This document shows, piece by piece, positions 22,116 to 35,136 of a stretch of DNA of 64,000 nt. A program made the position numbers and the translations under genes. Under the pieces are notes generated by a model. That model saw nothing but the letters and a program-made list of their open reading frames with translations, made no database searches and was not told the origin of the DNA. Position 1 is the first letter of the stretch. Each line of letters begins with the position of its first letter. The DNA is taken from assembly GCF_003074135.1 (NCBI RefSeq), contig NZ_PPDK01000001.1, forward strand, positions 1,798,001-1,862,000, given 5' to 3'. The stretch comes from Euzebya tangerina. Lineage in GTDB: Bacteria; Actinomycetota; Nitriliruptoria; Euzebyales; Euzebyaceae.

Positions 22116-23214
22116 CACGGGTTGCCTTCCAATTGCGGCTACGGCGGGCTCGCACAAAGACATCACGGTGGTCCTGCGCCACATCGGCGAACGTGCGCAG
22201 GTCGGGGTGCGAGGGGGCAATGGACACTTCGGCTTGCTCGAGGATGGCATCGGCAAGGCTGTGCGGATCCTCGGGGCGGCACAGCCGGACGCCCGGACCA
22301 GCGGCCGGGGGAAGTCCCGGCGCGTCGGTGGCTACCGCGGGGATGCGGCATGCCTGGGCTTCGAGTAGGGCATTTGGGAGGCCCTCATACCGCGAGGGCA
22401 TGGCAAAGACGGTGAGGTCGTGCAGAAAGTCTGCGACCTGGTCGGGGGTGTCGAGCGCTCCGAGGAACTCCACGGGCAGGCCCTCGGCCTGGGACTCGAG
22501 CTCGCGGCGGAGGGGGCCGTCGCCCACGATCGAGAGCGTGGCTGGCCGCCGCTCCAGGACCAGTGGCAGAGCGTGGAGCAGGACGTCGAACCCCTTCTGG
22601 TGGACCAGGCGGCCCACCGCGCCAACCCGGATCGGGCCCGACGAGTCGGCCGTCGACGGCGGAGACGTCCGCGGTCGGAAGGTGGTGGTGTCGATGCCGT
22701 TCGGGATCACGACGACCCGGCGCGGCGACACGCCGTGGGACGTGGCGATGAACTGGGCGACGTCGCCGGAGTTCCCGATGTAGGCCTCGGTCAGCAGCCG
22801 CAGGGGGCGGTCCAGCGCGCGCTTCGCCGGGCTGCGGAAGTGCTCGACGCGGCGCTCGGACATCACGATCGCCGGACGTTCGCGGTCGAGGGCGGCAACG
22901 GCGCGACCGAACAGGCTGCCACCCCACAGCGAGGTGTGGAGGACATCTGGCTTGCTGGTTCGCAGGTGCCGCAGCAGCCCGGCTGCTCGGCCAGGATGCC
23001 AAGACGGCTCGGCCCCGAACTCCACCACCGGGATGCCGGCATCGCTCAGTTCGCGGGTCAGCGGGAAGCCCTCGTACAGCACGCCGACGGTGGGGTTCCA
23101 CAGGCCCTGATCGACGGCAGCCTTGGCCATCCCCACCAGCTGCCGCTCGGTGCCAGACGGAGGCAGGCGCGCGATCAGGTGGAGCACCGACAGGGTGGTG
23201 TCGTGGCCGTCCAC
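22012..23214 (-). CDS. glycosyltransferase family 4 (GT-B)
   Basis: The 400-residue protein begins LSVLHLIARLPPSGTERQLV, has a donor domain with VGAVGRLVHQKGFDVLLHAL and the E-x7-E region FAMPSRYEGLPNALLEAQAC. I place the start at a GTG (23214), seven bases after a TACGAC sequence. The last 40 residues (about from RNWKATRDD) lie over the start of the next gene in another frame and do not resemble GT4 ends, so the natural stop may have been lost. It is the first gene of the two-GT4 run that closes the polysaccharide locus. Confidence 0.83.
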   Translation of the reverse strand: MDGHDTTLSVLHLIARLPPSGTERQLVGMAKAAVDQGLWNPTVGVLYEGFPLTRELSDAGIPVVEFGAEPSWHPGRAAGLLRHLRTSKPDVLHTSLWGGSLFGRAVAALDRERPAIVMSERRVEHFRSPAKRALDRPLRLLTEAYIGNSGDVAQFIATSHGVSPRRVVVIPNGIDTTTFRPRTSPPSTADSSGPIRVGAVGRLVHQKGFDVLLHALPLVLERRPATLSIVGDGPLRRELESQAEGLPVEFLGALDTPDQVADFLHDLTVFAMPSRYEGLPNALLEAQACRIPAVATDAPGLPPAAGPGVRLCRPEDPHSLADAILEQAEVSIAPSHPDLRTFADVAQDHRDVFVRARRSRNWKATRDDPSTPHRIHRPAWSPSHVWRNRTSRRRAGLTSG

Positions 23215-23261
23215 GTCACGAGTCGTAGCAGTCGGCGTCGGTGGCACCTCGCGTACGTATG

Positions 23262-23273
23262 GGCCGATCGGCC
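23262..23273. promoter_or_regulatory. 12-base perfect palindrome between GT4 and panC
   Basis: GGCCGATCGGCC lies in the 172-base divergent space. It could be a regulator site; GC-rich palindromes of this length also arise by chance. Confidence 0.25.
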
Positions 23274-23372
23274 ACGAAACGGCCGGTTCATGCGGCTGCC
23301 GCTGGTGCACGAAACCGAGCTGTCACCTGCATTTTCGTTCGATTTCACGTTTCTTTGACGGTGGCTGGGCGC

Positions 23373-23378
23373 TAGCCT
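23373..23378 (+). promoter_or_regulatory. -10 box TAGCCT for panC
   Basis: TAGCCT ends eight bases before the ATG at 23387. A TTGACG lies 12 bases further up, too close for a normal -35. Confidence 0.5.
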
Positions 23379-23386
23379 CCCAGGCC

Positions 23387-24241
23387 ATGGGCCGGCCACA
23401 GGTCATCACGGGCGTCGAGGAGATCCGCCGGATCGTCACCGACCACCGATCTGCCGGCCGCCGGGTCGGACTGGTGCCGACCATGGGAGCCCTCCACGAC
23501 GGACACCTCTCCCTGGTCGACGCGGCCCGTCGGGACAACGATGTGGTCGTCACCTCCATCTTCGTCAACCCGCTGCAGTTCGCCCCCGGCGAGGACCTGG
23601 AGGCGTACCCGCGCAACCTCGAGTCCGACGTCGACCAACTGGCGGAGCGGGACGTGGAACTGGTCTTCCACCCCGACGTGGAGGCCTTCACCAGCCCTTC
23701 CGCCATGACGACGGTCCACGTGGACGGTCTCAGCCGGGGACTCGAGGCTGTCACTCGCCCCACCCACTTCGACGGCGTCACGACGATCGTCACGAAGCTG
23801 CTGAACACCGTGGCCCCGGACGCGGTCTACTTCGGGGCCAAGGACTTCCAGCAGCAGGCAATCATCCGCCAGATGGTGGGGGACCTGAACATTCCGGTGG
23901 AGGTCGTGACCTGCCCCATCGTCAGGGAGCCGGACGGCCTGGCCATGTCCAGTCGGAACGTCTACCTGTCGGCGGAGGAGCGCGTGGACGCGCTGGCCCT
24001 CTCCGCGGCGTTGATCCACGCCCACCAGGTGTGGGACGCCGGGGAACATGACGCGGATGAATTGCGTTCAGAACTTGTGGATATACTCACTGACGCCCCG
24101 GGCGTCCGCCTGGATTATGCGGAGGTCATCGACCCCGTGACCCTTGAGCCACTGAAGGGCATCCAGACCGGACCAGTCCAGGTCGTCCTGGCAGCGTTCG
24201 TCGGACCAACACGTCTGATCGACAACGCCAGAATTGCATAA
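23387..24241 (+). CDS. panC: pantoate--beta-alanine ligase
   Basis: PanC joins pantoate and beta-alanine with ATP to make pantothenate, the vitamin B5 precursor of CoA. The 284-residue protein has VGLVPTMGALHDGHLSLVDA with the HDGH form of the nucleotidyltransferase HIGH motif, VYFGAKDFQQQAIIRQM, and MSSRNVYLSAEER as the KMSKS-equivalent loop. Length is normal. It appears leaderless, with TAGCCT eight bases upstream of the ATG. The next gene, panD, makes beta-alanine, so the two form a pathway operon. Confidence 0.96.
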   Translation: MGRPQVITGVEEIRRIVTDHRSAGRRVGLVPTMGALHDGHLSLVDAARRDNDVVVTSIFVNPLQFAPGEDLEAYPRNLESDVDQLAERDVELVFHPDVEAFTSPSAMTTVHVDGLSRGLEAVTRPTHFDGVTTIVTKLLNTVAPDAVYFGAKDFQQQAIIRQMVGDLNIPVEVVTCPIVREPDGLAMSSRNVYLSAEERVDALALSAALIHAHQVWDAGEHDADELRSELVDILTDAPGVRLDYAEVIDPVTLEPLKGIQTGPVQVVLAAFVGPTRLIDNARIA

Positions 24242-24313
24242 CCAGCCAACAGGCTGACCACATCGGTTGGAGCCCGCACCGACGGGCCTGGCACGAGAGA
24301 AAGGACGTGCGAC

Positions 24314-24706
24314 ATGTTCCGCACGCTGATGAAGTCGAAGCTGCACCGTGCAACGGTGACGGGCGCGAACCTCAACTACGTCGGATCGATCACGATCGAT
24401 CCAGACCTGATCGAGTTGGCTGATCTGATGCCAAACGAGCGGGTCCAGATCGTGAACAACAACAACGGCGCGCGCTTGGAGACCTACGTGATCCCGGGTG
24501 TGCCCGGCTCGGGCGACATGTGCCTGAACGGCGCCGCGGCGCGGCTGGTACAGCCCGGCGACAAGATCATCGTCATCAGCTACGGCATGTACGACCGGGA
24601 GGAGGCGGCCGAGCACGAGCCGACCGTCATCATCCTCGACGAGTTCAACCAGCCGGAGAACATCATCGGCGAGGAGCCGGCCCACTCCATCCTGTCGGAG
24701 TTGTAG
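24314..24706 (+). CDS. panD: aspartate 1-decarboxylase proenzyme
   Basis: PanD decarboxylates aspartate to beta-alanine for PanC. The 130-residue protein self-cleaves at Gly24-Ser25 (NYVGSITID), giving a pyruvoyl cofactor on the alpha chain. The segments [20 protein letters not shown] and [20 protein letters not shown] are characteristic. The ATG at 24314 has AGAAAGGA about nine bases upstream, and it is 72 bases from panC. Confidence 0.96.
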
Positions 24707-24709
24707 GTT
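24704..24709 (+). promoter_or_regulatory. possible -10 box TAGGTT for nadC
   Basis: TAGGTT covers the panD stop codon and ends six bases before the nadC GTG. It may allow a separate transcript inside the operon. Confidence 0.3.
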
Positions 24710-24715
24710 GCCCGT

Positions 24716-25606
24716 GTGTCTCGTCAGCCAGCCCTGATCCGCCTCAGCGCCGTCGTCGCCACCGCTCTGGCCGAGGACCTGGGGACCGGGTGGTCGGTCG
24801 ACGACGACCTCACCTCCGCGGCGACGGTGCCGCGCGACATCAGGGCAACGGCACACTTCGTCCCCCGTGAGGCCGGTGTCGTCGCCGGCCTCGACGCCAT
24901 CACCGAGACCTACGCGCAGGTGGACCCCGAGGTGACGGTGACCCGCTACGCCGGCGATGGCGACGAGGTCGTCCCCGGTGAGACCATCGTCACGATCCAC
25001 GGTCGGGCGCGCTCGGTCCTGGCCGGAGAGCGGACGGCCCTCAACCTGGTCACCCACCTCTCGGGCATCGCAACGACGACCCGGGAGTTGGTGGACGCCG
25101 TCGCGGGCACCGGGGCGATCGTCCGCGACACCCGGAAGACCCTGCCCGGCCTCCGATTGGTGCAGAAGCAGGCGGTCCTGGCCGGCTCCGGTGCCAACCA
25201 TCGGATGTCACTGGTCGACGAGTTGTTGGTCAAGGACAACCATGTGGCCGCGGCGGGTGGCATGGCGACGGCAGCGCGGGGAGCCCTCTCGGCCGCGCGC
25301 GGTCTGCCGGTGCAGATCGAGGTGGACTCGCTGGAGCAGTTGGACGTGGTGCTCGAGGCGGGGGCGGACCGGGTGATGCTGGACAACTTCTCCATCGAAG
25401 ACTCGGTCGAGGGCGTGCGGCGCTGCCGGGCGACAGGCCGGAAGGTGTTCGTGGAGGCCTCCGGCGGCATCACCCTCGAGACGATCGCGGAGATCGCCAG
25501 GACCGGCGTGGACTCGATTGCCGTTGGTGCACTGACTCACTCCTCCGGCGCGTTGGACATCGGCCTCGACATCCACCTCGACCTCCCACCGGGTGGGGAG
25601 GGCTAG
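24716..25606 (+). CDS. nadC: nicotinate-nucleotide pyrophosphorylase (carboxylating)
   Basis: NadC converts quinolinate and PRPP to nicotinate mononucleotide in de novo NAD synthesis. The 296-residue protein has AVVATALAEDLGTGW, RDTRKTLPGLRLVQKQAVL with the quinolinate-binding residues, ANHRMSLVDELLVKDNH, and VFVEASGGITLETIAEIART with the phosphate-binding end. GTG at 24716 follows the panD stop by nine bases. No nadA or nadB is in the window. Confidence 0.95.
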   Translation: MSRQPALIRLSAVVATALAEDLGTGWSVDDDLTSAATVPRDIRATAHFVPREAGVVAGLDAITETYAQVDPEVTVTRYAGDGDEVVPGETIVTIHGRARSVLAGERTALNLVTHLSGIATTTRELVDAVAGTGAIVRDTRKTLPGLRLVQKQAVLAGSGANHRMSLVDELLVKDNHVAAAGGMATAARGALSAARGLPVQIEVDSLEQLDVVLEAGADRVMLDNFSIEDSVEGVRRCRATGRKVFVEASGGITLETIAEIARTGVDSIAVGALTHSSGALDIGLDIHLDLPPGGEG

Positions 25607-25610
25607 CGTC

Positions 25611-26393
25611 GTGCTGTTGGCCGTCGACGTGGGCAACTCCACCACGGTGATCGGGGTGTTCGAGGGCGATGATCTGGTTGAGCACTGGCGGGTCTCGACG
25701 GAGGCGGCCCGGACAGCCGATGAGTGGGCGCTGATCTTCCAGGGCTTCATGGCCTTCCAGAACCTGTCCTTCTCCAAGAACGTCCATGGTGTGGTGCTCT
25801 CCTCGGTGGTCCCGATCGTGACCGAGCGGCTGGTCGAGATGACCCGCAAGTACTTCCACTTCCCACCCGTGGTCGTGCGGCCCGGGACCAAGACGGGGTT
25901 CAGCATCAACATCGACAACCCACGAGAGGTCGGAGCCGACCGGCTGGTCAACGCCATCGCGGCGCACCACAAGTTCGGTGGCCCTGGTGTGGTGGTCGAC
26001 TTCGGGACCTCCACCAACTTCGACGTCTACACCGCCAAGGGGGCGTTCATCGGCGGGGCGATCGCCCCCGGCGTGATGATGTCGATGGAGGCTCTCAGCG
26101 CGCGGGGGGCGCAGCTGCCGAAGTTCGAGCTGCGGGCGCCACGGTCCGCGGTGGGGCGCAATACCATCGAGGCGATGCAGTCGGGTGCGGTCTTCGGGTT
26201 CGCCGGGCAGGTGGATCGGATCGTCGAGCGGATCGTCGAGTCCTTGGTGACCGAGGGGCACGGCAACCCCAACGTCGTCGCAACCGGGGGCCTGGCGGAT
26301 GCCATCGTCGAGGAGTGCTCGACCATCGCCCACCACGAGCCGTGGCTGACGCTGGACGGCCTGCGGATCATCTGGGACCGCAACACCGGCTGA
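25611..26393 (+). CDS. coaX: type III pantothenate kinase
   Basis: CoaX phosphorylates pantothenate, the first step from pantothenate to CoA, and is resistant to CoA feedback in this family. The 260-residue protein has the ASKHA-fold phosphate loop LLAVDVGNSTTVIGVF at its very start, GADRLVNAIAAH, and VVVDFGTSTNFDVYTAKGAF. I chose GTG at 25611, which gives the usual family start, with GGGAGG nine bases upstream; a GTG at 25593 would overlap nadC. It completes panC-panD-nadC-coaX. Confidence 0.94.
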   Translation: MLLAVDVGNSTTVIGVFEGDDLVEHWRVSTEAARTADEWALIFQGFMAFQNLSFSKNVHGVVLSSVVPIVTERLVEMTRKYFHFPPVVVRPGTKTGFSINIDNPREVGADRLVNAIAAHHKFGGPGVVVDFGTSTNFDVYTAKGAFIGGAIAPGVMMSMEALSARGAQLPKFELRAPRSAVGRNTIEAMQSGAVFGFAGQVDRIVERIVESLVTEGHGNPNVVATGGLADAIVEECSTIAHHEPWLTLDGLRIIWDRNTG

Positions 26394-27859: not shown

Positions 27860-28321
27860 CTACCCGGGAACGGAGATGACGTCGCTCAGGACGTCCGGTT
27901 CCTCTGGCCGCCGCAGGCGAAGGCGTACCAGACCGGTCACCGGCACGGTGAAGCCGCCGGCGGCATCGAGGTCGACCTGATGGGTGGTCCCACCGATCTC
28001 CTCCACGACGACATCGGCGTCGATGGGCGCCACGCGTCCGTCCAATCGTCCGGGCGAGGGGACAACCGAGATCTGGGTGGGACCGTCCGTCCAGTGCAGC
28101 GCCGCCTCATCGTCGATGGTGGCGGAGGAGCGTACGGCGGCGAACTCCTGCTGGCTCCACTCGGCGAGGATGGCCTCTGGGTCACGGAGTGCGAACAGGG
28201 CCTTCGCCCCCTCCACGGTCGCTTGGATGGGTTCGCGTGCGAAGTGTGCGCGCAGACGACTCACGGCCTGGGCTTCCTCGGCCGTGGTCTCGACGTGTGG
28301 GGCGTCATCGTGTGTGCTCAC
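27860..28321 (-). CDS. unknown beta-rich small protein linked to ECF sigma and CHAT protease
   Basis: I do not recognise a named family for this 153-residue protein. It has no signal peptide or membrane helix. The first half is helical (AEEAQAVSRLRAHFAREP); the second half is beta-rich, with LDGRVAPIDADVVVEEIG and VDLDAAGGFTVPVTGLVRLR, which looks like a single transthyretin or carboxypeptidase-regulatory-like repeat. The GTG at 28321 has a good GGAGGA site. It follows the ECF sigma gene by 45 bases and belongs to the same minus-strand run as the CHAT gene, so it may be a regulator or substrate of the module. That is inference. Confidence 0.6.
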   Translation of the reverse strand: MSTHDDAPHVETTAEEAQAVSRLRAHFAREPIQATVEGAKALFALRDPEAILAEWSQQEFAAVRSSATIDDEAALHWTDGPTQISVVPSPGRLDGRVAPIDADVVVEEIGGTTHQVDLDAAGGFTVPVTGLVRLRLRRPEEPDVLSDVISVPG

Positions 28322-28366
28322 CGTTCCTCCTTCCCGCCGGAGAGTGATGACTGAAGGCGTTTGATA

Positions 28367-28930
28367 CTAGGCCGCCTCCAGTTTTCTCAACTCGGCCGTC
28401 AGGGCTGCCAGACAGCGGCCGCGGGTCGGCCCGATCCAGCCGAGCGGGCGTCCCAGGGTGGCGGCGATCTCGGCGTAGGACAGCTCGGCGGCGAACAGCA
28501 GGGTGAGCAGTTCACGGCAGGCCTCACCCAGGCGTCTGAACGCCCGCCGGATGGCCGAGTCCTCCTCCTCCGCGAGGATGACGTTCTCGGGCTCCCGCTC
28601 GGGGAGATCCATCGACTGCAGCAGGTCGTCGATGACCGGCGTCGGCCGGCGTTTGGTGAGCTCGCTGCGAGCCGTGTTGCGGGCCACGATGGCCAGCCAC
28701 CCCTTGATCTTCTCCGGGTCACGGATGGTGTCCAGGCGGGAGAGGAGGCGCATCCACACGATCTGCGAGACGTCGGTCGCCAGGTCCGGGTCGGCGCCGA
28801 CGGCGCGGGCTGAGTGGTAGACCAGCCGGCCGTATCGGTCGACAAGCTGGTTCCAGGCGGCTTGGTCGCCCGCGGCGGCGCCCTTCAACAGGTCGGCGTC
28901 GGTGTCGTTCTGGAAGGGGCCGTCGGGCAT
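28367..28930 (-). CDS. ECF RNA polymerase sigma factor
   Basis: The 187-residue protein has sigma region 2 (DQAAWNQLVDRYGRLVYHSA, then DLATDVSQIVWMRLLSRLDT, KGWLAIVARNTARSELTK) and region 4 (CRELLTLLFAAELSYAEIAA with helix-turn-helix TLGRPLGWIGPTRGRCLAAL). It directs RNA polymerase to its own promoter class. I chose the ATG at 28930 because TACGAT ends seven bases upstream; an ATG at 28939 would overlap that box. No anti-sigma with a membrane helix is next to it; the small gene downstream or the CHAT protein upstream may control it. Confidence 0.88.
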   Translation of the reverse strand: MPDGPFQNDTDADLLKGAAAGDQAAWNQLVDRYGRLVYHSARAVGADPDLATDVSQIVWMRLLSRLDTIRDPEKIKGWLAIVARNTARSELTKRRPTPVIDDLLQSMDLPEREPENVILAEEEDSAIRRAFRRLGEACRELLTLLFAAELSYAEIAATLGRPLGWIGPTRGRCLAALTAELRKLEAA

Positions 28931-28937
28931 GGCCGAC

Positions 28938-28943
28938 ATCGTA
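28938..28943 (-). promoter_or_regulatory. -10 box TACGAT for the ECF sigma gene
   Basis: TACGAT ends seven bases before the ATG at 28930, so the sigma gene can be transcribed apart from the CHAT gene. Confidence 0.45.
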
Positions 28944-28955
28944 GGGGTCGAGCGG

Positions 28956-31499
28956 TCAGTGGTTGCGCTGGATCAGCGGTCCCACGACCGAGAGCGTCTG
29001 GGCGACCGCATCGTCGCCGTCGAGTTGGATTCGGTGCAGTGCCGTCTCCGGGGCCTCGCCCGCCAGCAGCCCAGCGTGGAGCGCGGTCATCGTGGCGACC
29101 GTGCGGTCATCGTCGGGCAGCACGCAACGGGGTGCCACCACGGCGGTGGAACCGGCCGTCAGCCACGTGGCGACCAGGCCGAGGGTCTGGCCCGTCGCCG
29201 GGCTGGTCTGGCGGCCGGCATCACAGGCGGCGGCGACGACGGTCCGTGGGGGCTGACTGAGCTGCTCGATCTCGTAGCCGACCAGGGTGCCGCCCGAGAG
29301 GGCGTAGGAGGAGAGGAGCGGGTTCTCGCGATCGAAGGTGCCGTGGGTGCACAGGTGCAGGACCTCCGCGCCGTGGCTTGCGGTGACCACATCGGCGGGG
29401 GTGGCCGCAGCACCCTCCAGAACCCGGCTGTCGCCCGGACGGTCCGCCGCCACCAGCGTGTGGAGGACCTCGGCCTCGTGTGGTGCAGACGTCAGTCCAG
29501 GCCCAGCCACGATCACCCAGCGCGCGTCGGCGTCGGCCAGGCTCGGCGGCGGACTGGGCTGGGGTCGTGGCCGGAGGTCCAGTGTGATTCTGGTCGACCC
29601 GGACAGCAGGTTGGTCCAGGGCACCTCCAGTAGTCGGCCGACGGGGAGGACGACGGTGGGCCGGTCGTCGAGTTGGCGGAGCATCGGCAGGTGGTCCCGC
29701 ACAACCCGCAGGGCGGCGTCGACCGCGCTCGAGTCATGTGACTCGGCGAACATGGCCTGGCTGAGCTGGAGGTGCCAGCGACGAGTGGCGTCCATGACCG
29801 GTGCCGCGGGCGTCGGCTCCAGCAGGCTGATCTGGCCGTCGTCGAGACGGAGGCCGTGGAGCAGGCCGCGGTGCTCCCACAGGGCCAGCAGACGGCGGCT
29901 GCCTAGCGCCGCCTGGACCTCCTCCGTCGTGGTGATCTCGGGCGTGTCGTCGAGGCCGTTCGACGTGCCACGGGCACGATGTCGGCGGAGCACCCGGCGC
30001 CACTCGTCGGTGTCGGTGGCCCCCCGCTGCAAGGCTGTCCGCAGCTCGATGGACACCGGGTCCTCGGACTGCACCGGCGTCGAACGCAGGCCACCTCCCG
30101 TGGTCAGGATCAACAGATCGAGCATCCCGCGCGCGTCCTGCCGCTCGAGCAGGCTTTGTGCGCCGAGGGCCCAGAGTCGCTCGAACTGCTTGGCCATGCC
30201 GGTCCGGACCTCGAGGGAGGCTGATCGCGCCTGCCGGCTTCGCAGGGTGAGGAGTCCCTCCCGCACGTGCGCGATGGTCCGCTGGGGGTTGCCGCTTCTG
30301 CCGCTGGCCACGGCCTGTGCGATGGCGCGGCGAGGGTCACCGGAGGACAGCTGGAGGAGCCGGTCCAGGGCGCCGTCGGTCAGCGTCGAAGGGGCATTGA
30401 TCGTGGCCAGCAGCAGATCGGCGTCGGCCGCGATGTCCCCGGCGTCGTCCTGATGGAGGCTGAGCGCCAACTCCGCAATCCGAGCGGCGTCTTCGGCGGT
30501 CAGCGCCGTCGCGTCGGCATCGGCCAACTCGAAGCCGCGAACCTCGGCTATGCGAGCCCAGAGGCTTCGGCCCTGATCGCGGAACTCGGCCGCGGCGACG
30601 TCGATGACCCGCCTGGCGGTATCCGTCTGTTCCGAGCGGCCGAGTGCGCGGCCGAGCGCCAGGAGGGCTTCCGCACGGTCGGCATCAGCGCCTCCAGCAA
30701 CCAGACTGGGCAGGGCCGACGTCACCTCCTCCACGGCCTCTGCGCTGAGGCCGGCCGCGAGCAGCGCCTCCGCGCGGTCCAGAACGGCCTCGGTGAAGGG
30801 CTCGCCCAGCGTCTTGAGCTCTTGGGCGGCAAGTGCGAGGTTGTCGAGGGCGACCACGAGTTCGCCTGCTCGAGCCGCCGCACGGCCGAGGTTGCACCGA
30901 GACGAGGCAACCATGGTCGGAAGGTCCAGCTCGGCGTACAACGACAGCGCCAACCCGAACCGCAGCATCGCGGTCTGCGCCTCCCCCGACGCAATCTCCG
31001 CCAGTCCGAGTCCCGTCAGCGAATGCGCCTCGCCGAGTTGATCGCCCGAACGCCTGAACGACGCGAGAGCCGCGGTATACCGCAGTTTCGCCTCGGCGAG
31101 TCTTCCCTGGTGTTCGAGGACGGTCGCCATCTGGGCCTGGACGCGCGCCTCGAGTGCGGGCGACGGTGAGAGCCGCTCCAGCAACTCGGCGGCGGCAGCC
31201 AGCTTGCCCTGAAAGGCCAGCACGCCAGCGTGGGTCAGTTGTGCTCTGGTGTGATCGTCGGAGCCCGGTTCGAACGCGTCGACCGCCCGTGCGATCCAGT
31301 ACTTGGCCTCACTCAGGTGCTTGAGATGCCGCTCCGCCAGTGCCAACGCCCACGCGGTGAGCGCCTGGTCGTGGTCTAGGCCCTCACCGTCGCTCCCGGC
31401 GAGCCGGTTGCGAGCGTGGGCCGCCACGGCGGCCGGATCGGCGTCGGCCTGCTTGACAAGCTCGCGCGGGCTCGCCGAGGCTAGCGGCGACGTGGTCAA
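28956..31499 (-). CDS. TPR-CHAT caspase-like protease
   Basis: The 847-residue protein starts with about 450 residues of paired helices typical of TPR repeats (for example GDQLGEAHSLTGLGLAEIAS, then LRFGLALSLYAELDLPTM) and ends in a CHAT domain. The catalytic histidine is His719 in LHLCTHGTF and the cysteine is Cys759 in VVAAACDAG, with the usual 40-residue spacing and the following WLTAGSTAVVAPRCVLPDDD. CHAT proteases are caspase relatives that cleave partner proteins, often in defence or programmed-death settings, with TPRs as sensors. The start is a TTG at 31499 without a good ribosome site. No signal peptide is present, so it is cytosolic. It heads the run CHAT-ECF-small protein and diverges from the S8 protease. 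Confidence 0.87.
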   Translation of the reverse strand: MTTSPLASASPRELVKQADADPAAVAAHARNRLAGSDGEGLDHDQALTAWALALAERHLKHLSEAKYWIARAVDAFEPGSDDHTRAQLTHAGVLAFQGKLAAAAELLERLSPSPALEARVQAQMATVLEHQGRLAEAKLRYTAALASFRRSGDQLGEAHSLTGLGLAEIASGEAQTAMLRFGLALSLYAELDLPTMVASSRCNLGRAAARAGELVVALDNLALAAQELKTLGEPFTEAVLDRAEALLAAGLSAEAVEEVTSALPSLVAGGADADRAEALLALGRALGRSEQTDTARRVIDVAAAEFRDQGRSLWARIAEVRGFELADADATALTAEDAARIAELALSLHQDDAGDIAADADLLLATINAPSTLTDGALDRLLQLSSGDPRRAIAQAVASGRSGNPQRTIAHVREGLLTLRSRQARSASLEVRTGMAKQFERLWALGAQSLLERQDARGMLDLLILTTGGGLRSTPVQSEDPVSIELRTALQRGATDTDEWRRVLRRHRARGTSNGLDDTPEITTTEEVQAALGSRRLLALWEHRGLLHGLRLDDGQISLLEPTPAAPVMDATRRWHLQLSQAMFAESHDSSAVDAALRVVRDHLPMLRQLDDRPTVVLPVGRLLEVPWTNLLSGSTRITLDLRPRPQPSPPPSLADADARWVIVAGPGLTSAPHEAEVLHTLVAADRPGDSRVLEGAAATPADVVTASHGAEVLHLCTHGTFDRENPLLSSYALSGGTLVGYEIEQLSQPPRTVVAAACDAGRQTSPATGQTLGLVATWLTAGSTAVVAPRCVLPDDDRTVATMTALHAGLLAGEAPETALHRIQLDGDDAVAQTLSVVGPLIQRNH

Positions 31500-31605
31500 T
31501 GTGCGGTCTGCTCGGTGAGGCGACGCAGGTTCGGCGCGCAGACACGTATCACTGCCACGGTCGGCATCGTCTCACGCTCGAGCTCATCTATCAAAGGTGT
31601 CTGTT

Positions 31606-34065
31606 GTGCTCCGCAAACTCCCCCAGGTCCTCATGCTCGCAGTTGTCGCGGCGCTGCTCTCCGTCGTTCCCGCCGTCTCGCAGGTGGGCGATGGCGGCGC
31701 TGATGGCGACCCCGCCGCCGCCACGGACTACGAGTTGGTCCAGGACGAGTTCGACGAGATCTACGACCAGGCCAACCCACCGATCAGCGAGGACGACGGG
31801 TTGATCCAGTGTCTGTACGACCCGGCCAGACTGCTGGCTGACAGCGACACGCTGCAGGCCGCCGAGAACGACCCCAACTCCAACTTCTCGCTGGACCAGT
31901 TCGGGTTGCGCCGAAGTGTCGCCCCGGTCATCGACGAGGGACTGGTGGAGGAGGCCACGTTCGGCGACCTCGGGATCACGGAGCTCGAGGTGGCCGCGCC
32001 CACAGGGGACGATCCCGTCGACCTCGCCCTGCAGCTCAGCGAGTTCGGGATCTTCGCCGCCCCCGACTACCAGATGTTCCCCACACCGCGGCACTACTTC
32101 CCGGGATCCTTCCCGGTCCCGCGGACCCCCTCGCCGGCGCTGTCCTACGCCGCACCGGACGGGGAGCACACCGTCCACGTCCTCGACACCGGCATCGACC
32201 TCGACCAGGGGTACGCCGTCAACGACGTGCTGGTCGGCGGCCACACCGACGATGACCCCGAAGGCGCCAGCGAGGACGATCCCCTCGTCGCGACCGCACC
32301 GCTGGACTACGTCGGCGGGCACGGCGCCTTCGTCGCCGGTGTCCTGGCCCAGCAGGCTCCCGGTATCGGTCTTCAGGTGCGCGCCGTCAGCCCGGCGTCC
32401 AGCGCTCCCTCCTTCTTCGAGAGCGACTTCATCAACGCAGCCGCAGGTGCGCGGGTCCGGCACGACTCCGATAACGACACGGGGCCGATGTTGACCAACC
32501 TGTCGCTGGGGGTCAGCAACTGCCACACCTTCGGAGACCTTGACGAGGCCGGCCAGTCCCTGCCCATCGGGACCTTCCGTGCCGTCACCCGGATCCTGCT
32601 GCGCGAGCCGGGAGATATGTACCTGGCCGCCGCCGGCAACAGCGGCGACGACCAGCAGATCACCTACCCGGCGGCGTTCTTCAAGCGCCCGTCGACTGCG
32701 GGCCTGGAGGCTGACCTGCTGGACCAGTTCGACACGCGGACGATCGAGTCGTTGGAGGGGCAGACGCTGGCCGTCGGCGCCTCCGACCACGGTCGCATCG
32801 CTGAGTACTCCACGCGCGGTGGTTGGGTCGACGTCTACGCCGAGGGGTGTCACGTCGCGGACTACCCGCGTGGGACGTTCGACTACCCGTCCGCCTCGGG
32901 CAACCCGTCGGAGTCTCGGGAGTTCACCACCGGCGCAGCCCAGTGGTGTGGCTCCAGCTTCGCGACGCCGCTGGTGGCCGGGCTGATCGCGAGTGCGTGG
33001 ATGGACGGCGTCGACTTCGCCACGGCCAAGGCCAATGTCCTCGCGCAGGCAACCGACGTCGATGGGTCCCTGATCCTCGGTGACCTGGCGTTTGCGCCCG
33101 GGGTGAATCAGGTGACGGATTCCTCCGCCGCGGATGCCATCGACACAGCGACCGACACCTGCCAGCTGCTCTTCCCCCGGCCGGACGAGGCTCGCTCCGT
33201 GCTTCTGGCACGGGTGGGCGTCTTCGCGGATGCGCTGGCGGGATCGCCGCTGGCGCGTGATGACTCGTGCATCCTGTTCACGCCCTCCGACACGCTGGAC
33301 AGCCGGACCGAGACCGAGATCGACCGTGTGCTCCCCGAGGGCGGGTTGGTCCGGATCCTGGGCGGTGAGGTGGCTGTCTCGGCGGAGATCGAGGCGCAAC
33401 TGCAGGAGACCTACTCCGTCGAGCGGTTCGGTGGCGTGACCCGGGTCCAGACGGCGACCGCCATCGCGGACGCGGTGCTGGCGGAGAACCCCGGTCAGAC
33501 CGAGGCGATGATCGCCTACGCTCGAGACTTCCCCGACGCGGTGACCGGCGGTGCGTACGGGGCGCAGACCGGCACACCGGTGCTGCTCAGCGACACCGAG
33601 GTGCTGCATCCGGACACCCGCCTGTGGCTGGAGGCCAACGAGATCACGACCGGCTACCTGCTCGGCGGGACGGCCGTCCTCGGGAACCAGGTGGAGGCGC
33701 AGGCTGGCCTCACCATCCTGAACAACGACCCGGTGGCTGGGCAGGTCCAGCGGGTGGCTGGCCCGAACCGGATGGGGACGGCGGCGGCCGTGGCGAGCCA
33801 GCTGTGGGGTCCGGTCAACGGTGGCTCGCCCGAGAACCTGGTCGTGCTCGACCTCGAGCGGCCCGACGCCTGGAACGTCGCGCTGTCCTCGGCACCGCTG
33901 TCGGCCCTGTGCGACGCACCGCAACTGGGTGTGCGAGCGGCGGGTACGCCGATCGAGACAGGGCAGTACCTGCTGGACCAGAGCTTCGGGCAGACCCCGA
34001 CGGTCCTCATGATGGGGCCGGCGCGGGACGACGGGCTCATCGCCTCGGCGGTCGACGTGCCCTAG
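31606..34065 (+). CDS. secreted S8 (subtilisin-like) protease with CWB2 cell-wall-binding repeats
   Basis: The 819-residue protein has a Sec-type signal peptide (VLMLAVVAALLSVVPAVS), then a subtilisin domain with the whole triad: Asp194 in HVLDTGID, His239 in GGHGAFVAGVL, Ser451 in GSSFATPLVAG, and the oxyanion Asn in AAAGNSGDD. From about residue 520 it carries three cell-wall-binding repeat 2 (PF04122) units, such as FGGVTRVQTATAIADAVLAE and YLLGGTAVLG. It therefore acts outside the cell, held to the wall. The GTG at 31606 has AAAGG eight bases upstream; 31597 is an alternative. It diverges from the CHAT gene across about 100 bases. Confidence 0.9.
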   Translation: MLRKLPQVLMLAVVAALLSVVPAVSQVGDGGADGDPAAATDYELVQDEFDEIYDQANPPISEDDGLIQCLYDPARLLADSDTLQAAENDPNSNFSLDQFGLRRSVAPVIDEGLVEEATFGDLGITELEVAAPTGDDPVDLALQLSEFGIFAAPDYQMFPTPRHYFPGSFPVPRTPSPALSYAAPDGEHTVHVLDTGIDLDQGYAVNDVLVGGHTDDDPEGASEDDPLVATAPLDYVGGHGAFVAGVLAQQAPGIGLQVRAVSPASSAPSFFESDFINAAAGARVRHDSDNDTGPMLTNLSLGVSNCHTFGDLDEAGQSLPIGTFRAVTRILLREPGDMYLAAAGNSGDDQQITYPAAFFKRPSTAGLEADLLDQFDTRTIESLEGQTLAVGASDHGRIAEYSTRGGWVDVYAEGCHVADYPRGTFDYPSASGNPSESREFTTGAAQWCGSSFATPLVAGLIASAWMDGVDFATAKANVLAQATDVDGSLILGDLAFAPGVNQVTDSSAADAIDTATDTCQLLFPRPDEARSVLLARVGVFADALAGSPLARDDSCILFTPSDTLDSRTETEIDRVLPEGGLVRILGGEVAVSAEIEAQLQETYSVERFGGVTRVQTATAIADAVLAENPGQTEAMIAYARDFPDAVTGGAYGAQTGTPVLLSDTEVLHPDTRLWLEANEITTGYLLGGTAVLGNQVEAQAGLTILNNDPVAGQVQRVAGPNRMGTAAAVASQLWGPVNGGSPENLVVLDLERPDAWNVALSSAPLSALCDAPQLGVRAAGTPIETGQYLLDQSFGQTPTVLMMGPARDDGLIASAVDVP

Positions 34066-34071
34066 CGCTGC

Positions 34072-35136
34072 TCACGTGGTCTCGCCTGTCTCCTCGTCCG
34101 CCAGGCTCTCCCTGGCCGCCCGGTAGCCATCCTCGATGAACCGGGCTGCCCTGCTCGGCTCGAAGTCGAGCAGTTGGCCGATGCCCGGGGTGAGACCTGA
34201 TGGCGTCACCGTGACCAGCTCGACGATCCGGTGCACGGTCTCGGCCTGGCCACTGGCGACCAGTCGGTTGACGGTGCGGGCGTGGTCTAGGTCGACGACG
34301 AGTGATTGGGTGAACAGGTGCTCGACCGCCAGGCCGATCACGTCACCGAACGACCTCGGCGCGTACGGCCGGTTGTGCCGGGCAGCCGAGGCCACCACGA
34401 CCGCGGCATCGGGCTCGTGTTCGAACGCGGCGGCCAGTGGGGTGTTGGAGGCCAGGCCGCCGTCCCAGTAGGAACGACCGTCGATCTCGACGGGCTCGAA
34501 CAGACCCGGTATGGCTGCGGAGGCCAGGATGTGGTCGACGGTCATCTGCACGACGCGGAGCCCGTCCCCGCTGCGGCCATCGGCTGGCTCGGCGTTGCTG
34601 AACCGAACGAACTCACCGGTGTCCACCTCGACGGCAGACACGGTGAGGATTCGGCCGGGCTGCAGCGGCAACACCTCGCCGCCGATGGCATCGACGATCC
34701 GCCGGCGCAGGGGGCGCATGTGGAACAGCCAGGTCCACCCGAACAGGTCGAGCAGCGCCTCGGATGCGGTGTGCTCCCCGAAGCCGAGGAATCGTCGGGG
34801 GTCGCCCAGCAGTCGACCCAGCCGGAACAGACGATGGAGGTCCAGCCGAGGACGCATGACGTGCCGGGTCTCCTGGCCACACCAGAACGTCTCCAGCCGG
34901 TCGGTGTCCCAGCCCATCGCCAGCCCCGCTGCGGTGAGCGCACCAGCGGACGTCCCGGCCAGGATCTGGGGTGTGATGCCGGCTTCGAGCACGGCCTTGG
35001 CCACGCCCACGTCGAACGCACCCCGAGCACCGCCCCCGGACAGCACCAACGCCACACGTCCCTGCTCGAGCGCGTGCCGCCGGGCATCGGGGTCGCCGCC
35101 GCCCTCCCAGGTCGAACGGGGCCGGGCGGTGGTCAT
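34072..35136 (-). CDS. patatin-like phospholipase
   Basis: The 354-residue protein has the patatin oxyanion loop ALVLSGGGARGAFDVGVA, the nucleophile Ser63 in LAGTSAGALTAAGLA and the catalytic Asp near residue 225 in SYWDGGLASNTPL, so the Ser-Asp dyad is complete. Patatins hydrolyse acyl chains of membrane lipids. There is no signal peptide. TAGACT ends nine bases before the ATG at 35136. It converges on the S8 protease with a six-base gap; whether it belongs to that module or is an independent lipid gene is open. Confidence 0.88.
   Translation of the reverse strand: MTTARPRSTWEGGGDPDARRHALEQGRVALVLSGGGARGAFDVGVAKAVLEAGITPQILAGTSAGALTAAGLAMGWDTDRLETFWCGQETRHVMRPRLDLHRLFRLGRLLGDPRRFLGFGEHTASEALLDLFGWTWLFHMRPLRRRIVDAIGGEVLPLQPGRILTVSAVEVDTGEFVRFSNAEPADGRSGDGLRVVQMTVDHILASAAIPGLFEPVEIDGRSYWDGGLASNTPLAAAFEHEPDAAVVVASAARHNRPYAPRSFGDVIGLAVEHLFTQSLVVDLDHARTVNRLVASGQAETVHRIVELVTVTPSGLTPGIGQLLDFEPSRAARFIEDGYRAARESLADEETGETT

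Follow-up and report, generated by a model that had tools for sequence, protein, structure and literature searches.

A putative protease-gated ECF sigma factor module with a CHAT protease, a subtilisin-type protease and a candidate soluble anti-sigma factor in Euzebya tangerina

Overview

An ECF sigma factor, a small protein of 153 amino acids, a TPR-CHAT cysteine protease and a subtilisin-type (S8) protease, encoded side by side in the genome of Euzebya tangerina, are supported as a real, co-inherited module that recurs across a number of actinobacterial lineages as well as in Acidobacteriota. We hold it about evenly balanced whether this is a protease-gated sigma switch, with the small protein as soluble anti-sigma factor and the CHAT protein as its releaser. 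The module is of a known kind, found here as a variant whose subtilisin is exported and bound to the wall; the novelty lies in the small protein, in what it is and what it probably does.

Organization of the locus

The window, the whole stretch of 64,000 nucleotides that was analysed, belongs to a genome of 4.78 Mb. The five open reading frames of the locus lie where an earlier note, written from the sequence, had placed them. The minus strand carries the CHAT gene (28956..31499, 847 amino acids) as the first gene, the ECF gene (28367..28939, 190 amino acids) and the small-protein gene (27860..28321). The gaps are only 16 bp between CHAT and ECF and 45 bp between ECF and the small-protein gene, which makes it likely that the three genes form one operon. 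The S8 gene (31597..34065, plus strand, 822 amino acids) diverges from CHAT, and the 97-bp intergenic region that separates them (31500..31596) likely holds the promoters of both arms. A recognisable ECF-type promoter motif was not found in this region. The regions upstream of related operons are not enriched for the GGAAC-CGWC motif (2 of 54, the same as in shuffled sequences), and no shared dyad stands clearly above shuffles there. A patatin gene (34072..35136, Pfam 9.2e-35) is separated from the S8 gene by the six bases reported before, but it does not come after it: it lies on the minus strand and the 3' ends of the two genes face each other, so that they are convergent rather than consecutive. 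Upstream, at 23123-26393, biosynthetic genes of the panC, panD, nadC and coaX types stand in a row, judged from their translations only; this is an ordinary arrangement.

The CHAT protein matches the Pfam families CHAT (E=1.3e-20) and TPR_12, and its profile recovers the solved CHAT protein 8rot. The His719/Cys759 dyad, previously described as intact, is invariant in an alignment of 14 proteins; the protein is a predicted protease with conserved catalytic residues. The ECF sigma factor, correctly assigned to the CHAT strand, matches TIGR02937 (2.5e-22) and sigma-70 region 2 (Sigma70_r2, E=2.5e-12) of Pfam. The description of the S8 protein as a secreted protease with a full triad and CWB2 repeats also holds: it features a Peptidase_S8 domain (E=1.2e-15) with the triad D197/H242/S454, three CWB2 repeats (Pfam, 1.9e-28) and an N-terminal hydrophobic segment at residues 12-30 with a mean hydropathy of 2.25. 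Export of this and the other S8 proteins was judged from N-terminal hydropathy.

The genome codes for 19 ECF matches, of which two are of the module type and both lie within complete modules. The second module (L047, G000:C1:396000-415000) has the order S8-ECF-small protein-CHAT on one strand, and its S8 protease is non-exported and has no CWB2 repeats. There are 11 S8 matches and three CHAT matches in the genome. The third CHAT match (G000:C1:765596-766030) is found in a short open frame of 241 amino acids, with no module-type ECF or S8 gene of this genome within 10 kb.

Conservation and co-inheritance of the module

A profile of eight CHAT-adjacent ECF factors was used to scan named genomes, loci being selected by ECF similarity alone; those flanked on each side by 5 kb or more, 54 in number, were counted and partners were sought within 6 kb. 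The small protein is present in 46 of these loci, CHAT in 32 (0.4 expected at the density found in the window genome) and S8 in 22 (1.5 expected at the same density). All three partners occur together in 21 loci and none of them in seven; of the 46 loci that encode the small protein, 15 lack both CHAT and S8 within that distance. The 54 loci are related to each other and binomial tails therefore overstate the excess over chance. An independent sample of 13 non-seed ECF loci, taken evenly from across the phylum, has both CHAT and S8 in eight cases and the small protein in nine. The neighbourhood search that the earlier note had proposed thus groups ECF, small protein, CHAT and S8 far above chance; the grouping of patatin and CWB2 with the rest is not above chance.

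Pairwise distances among the module parts correlate at 0.86-0.92 across modules, to which shared organismal descent contributes. Among the five modules compared, the ECF, CHAT, small and S8 proteins of the window all find their best match in Salsipaludibacter albus (51, 37, 31 and 28% identity, respectively), which belongs to the same class, Nitriliruptoria; the S8 identity extends over 391 amino acids and the S. albus protease is likewise exported. Each part of the paralogous module finds its partner in a different genome of the genus (71, 42, 49 and 54% for ECF, CHAT, small protein and S8).

Two other arrangements were observed. Loci L050 and L044 have tandem duplications of S8, small-protein and CHAT units around one ECF gene, which suggests several protease/small-protein pairs per sigma factor. 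In Streptosporangiaceae (L127, L133 and L104), related ECF genes without the module lie beside recurrent genes of sugar-nucleotide/polysaccharide type, as read from translations only; this ECF clade therefore has other partners too.

The small protein

The 153-residue protein gave no significant match to a Pfam, NCBIfam or PADLOC family, and a leave-out profile of its own family recovers it at 1.6e-11. The AlphaFold2 model, computed with 47 homologues (mean pLDDT 85, pTM 0.55), predicts three helices at residues 14-62 followed by a beta-sandwich at residues 75-151. The fold search barely covered the N-terminal helices, and its result, for residues 73-153, consists only of generic Ig-like sandwiches (Z about 8). 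For CarboxypepD_reg, homologues give weak matches below the cut-off (1e-4 to 1e-3) and the window protein gives none.

A member of this family is encoded directly downstream of the ECF gene in 60 of 77 loci, and no other neighbour of ECF is as constant as the small gene. Cognate anti-sigma genes are usually found directly downstream of their sigma gene. Four homologues, all of them module members from Acidobacteriota and Gemmatimonadota, bear a zinc-type motif upstream of the shared region: HxxxCxxC in L069 and L084, and HxxxxCxxC, with one extra residue, in L111 and L115. A profile built from Actinomycetota sequences only still matches the four at 7e-11 to 9e-8, while zf-HC2 is below cut-off in L069 and does not match the other three. 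The HxxxCxxC motif is absent from the window protein, which is homologous to the zinc-bearing relatives in the beta-sandwich and, before it, in at most the last N-terminal helix; the sigma-binding motif lies outside. As noted before, no membrane anti-sigma factor is present: the operon holds no such gene, and membrane segments are absent from the small protein. The earlier suggestion that the small protein may hold the sigma factor is strengthened by its constant place behind ECF and the anti-sigma-like zinc motif of its homologues, which make it the best candidate for a soluble anti-sigma factor. AlphaFold2 modelling of ECF and small protein as one chain yielded a pTM of 0.47 and no confident docking, from an alignment that was mostly unpaired and with no interface score.

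Proposed mode of action and alternatives

The observed genes, linkage, co-inheritance and domain content suggest a course of events in which binding, cleavage, signal and target genes are all proposed. With its N-terminal helical domain, the small protein would keep the ECF sigma factor inactive. The TPR-CHAT protein would sense an internal signal or a partner through its TPRs, become active and cleave or displace the small protein, whose degradation other proteases would perhaps finish. The freed sigma factor would then bind RNA polymerase. For the S8 protease, exported and cell-wall-bound in this lineage, a place as the circuit's output or outer sensor is more likely than one as its intracellular protease.

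A rather unlikely alternative, already proposed from the same gene neighbourhood for the group ECF54 (PMC8999054), dispenses with an anti-sigma factor: CHAT and/or the subtilase would degrade the sigma factor, which would stay off until proteolysis stops, and the small protein would be an adaptor or substrate-delivery factor. This reading draws on the sigma factor AntA, which is controlled by ClpXP via a C-terminal Ala-Ala. The window ECF ends in Leu-Glu-Ala-Ala (28367-28375), which resembles that degron, but the terminal Ala-Ala is mostly absent from related ECF factors. Most actinobacterial module S8 proteases, including the same-genome paralogue in L047, have no N-terminal hydrophobic segment, look cytosolic and could reach the sigma factor, whereas the exported S8 protein of the window could not. 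The zinc anti-sigma-like motifs of the small-protein homologues also speak against it, and for the small protein as anti-sigma factor.

It is less probable still, and in our view unlikely, that the sigma factor and the small protein control expression of the proteases, and that these attack other targets, for defence, suicide or remodelling of the envelope. In other conflict systems CHAT proteases serve as effectors, ECF factors commonly autoregulate, and a divergent promoter region between S8 and CHAT would fit their joint regulation. However, the autoregulatory promoter motif was not found, the module gave no defence-family match except weak TPR and generic phospholipase matches, and it is the small protein, not the proteases, that is most tightly linked to ECF.

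The circuit first suggested for the locus, with the exported S8 protease as a sensor of the outside, CHAT working inside and the patatin as effector, is very unlikely as a whole. S8 is indeed exported in the window and in its closest module, and predicted exported module proteases are found also in L052, L145, L147 and L149 and in the acidobacterial L084 and L115. Since only some module S8 proteases carry the export segment, a cross-envelope design is lineage-specific: it is possible in some lineages, but most actinobacterial S8 proteases, that of L047 among them, have no export signal. Nor was a membrane-spanning protein found in the module. The patatin has the expected motifs (GGGARGAF, GTSAG and DGG), yet no homologue occurs in any other module locus examined, and homologues are present in only three of 13 genomes searched, the window genome included. 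It was therefore rejected as a module part, and with it the effector role; the patatin is a chance neighbour. CWB2 was likewise rejected as a module signature, at least 163 repeats matching in the window genome alone, and with CWB2 so abundant genome-wide the S8-CWB2 fusion is a local elaboration. Another genome of the genus has, at L052 (6030-13201), genes for ECF, an anti-sigma-like small protein, CHAT and a secreted S8, followed by one for a separate secreted CWB2 protein, an arrangement that resembles a split version of the window fusion.

That ECF, small protein, CHAT and S8 are unrelated chance neighbours is hardly credible: the patatin is one and this genome abounds in CWB2 proteins, but this reading is already contradicted by the CHAT (32/54 against 0.4 expected) and S8 (22/54 against 1.5) counts and by the independent sample, with both in 8/13.

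Comparison with known systems

The group ECF54, whose type member (sequence SFT86700.1) is from the actinobacterium Geodermatophilus (PMC8999054), is described as having no anti-sigma factor, with control by proteolysis proposed (Huang 2015; Casas-Pastor 2021, reviewed in PMC8999054) because carboxypeptidase, subtilase and CHAT proteins are its conserved neighbours (PMC8999054). The window ECF shares the lack of a canonical anti-sigma factor and the CHAT and subtilase neighbours, and is provisionally assigned to ECF54 by gene context. The view of the locus as an undescribed module therefore does not stand, as this neighbourhood of CHAT, subtilase and carboxypeptidase-type proteins is published and the module is already described in outline (PMC8999054). 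Two differences are found: in the window lineage the S8 protease is an exported protein with CWB2 repeats fused to it, and an anti-sigma role is proposed here for the small protein while ECF54 is listed without such a factor. We infer that the "carboxypeptidase" neighbour of ECF54 is the sandwich of the small protein, which resembles a carboxypeptidase regulatory domain. The proposal of ECF54 proteolytic control without an anti-sigma factor derives solely from gene neighbourhood.

Zinc-binding anti-sigma (ZAS) proteins are alike in being encoded by a small gene directly after ECF, and their HxxxCxxC-type motif is found in module homologues of other phyla, whereas the window protein has three helices and a beta-sandwich instead of a zinc motif. 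The cascade of protease, anti-sigma factor and ECF sigma factor is the same in CalpL-CalpT-CalpS, where CalpL cleaves the anti-sigma factor CalpT (PMC11417357). CalpL is a Lon-type protease with a SAVED sensor triggered by cyclic oligoadenylate, while the window module has a CHAT protease with TPRs.

The release step proposed here is likened to that of Csx29-Csx30-CASP-sigma in type III-E CRISPR, where an ECF sigma factor is bound and inhibited by Csx30, a protein that the TPR-CHAT protease Csx29 cuts (PMC10028731). Both systems have a TPR-CHAT His/Cys protease, an ECF sigma factor and a third, possibly sigma-holding protein, and in the CRISPR system the protease relieves inhibition of sigma. 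Csx30 has 565 amino acids against 153 in the window protein, a comparison of lengths only, and the S8 partner is extra in the window module. A CRISPR link or type III-E identity was rejected, as Cas7-11 (RAMP, Cas7-type) had no match in the whole window genome while four control genomes matched. We tentatively consider that the 153-residue family may be a widespread group of soluble anti-sigma factors, akin to zinc anti-sigma proteins, with the linked CHAT protein as the protease that cuts them. The Csx29-Csx30-sigma switch would then exist in a widely distributed form independent of CRISPR. The model can be tested in cultured genera such as Saccharothrix, Amycolatopsis or Motilibacter. If the small partner is an anti-sigma factor and CHAT its protease, a switch of caspase-like protease, anti-sigma and sigma factor so far known from CRISPR loci would prove common among Actinomycetota and would occur in Acidobacteriota too.
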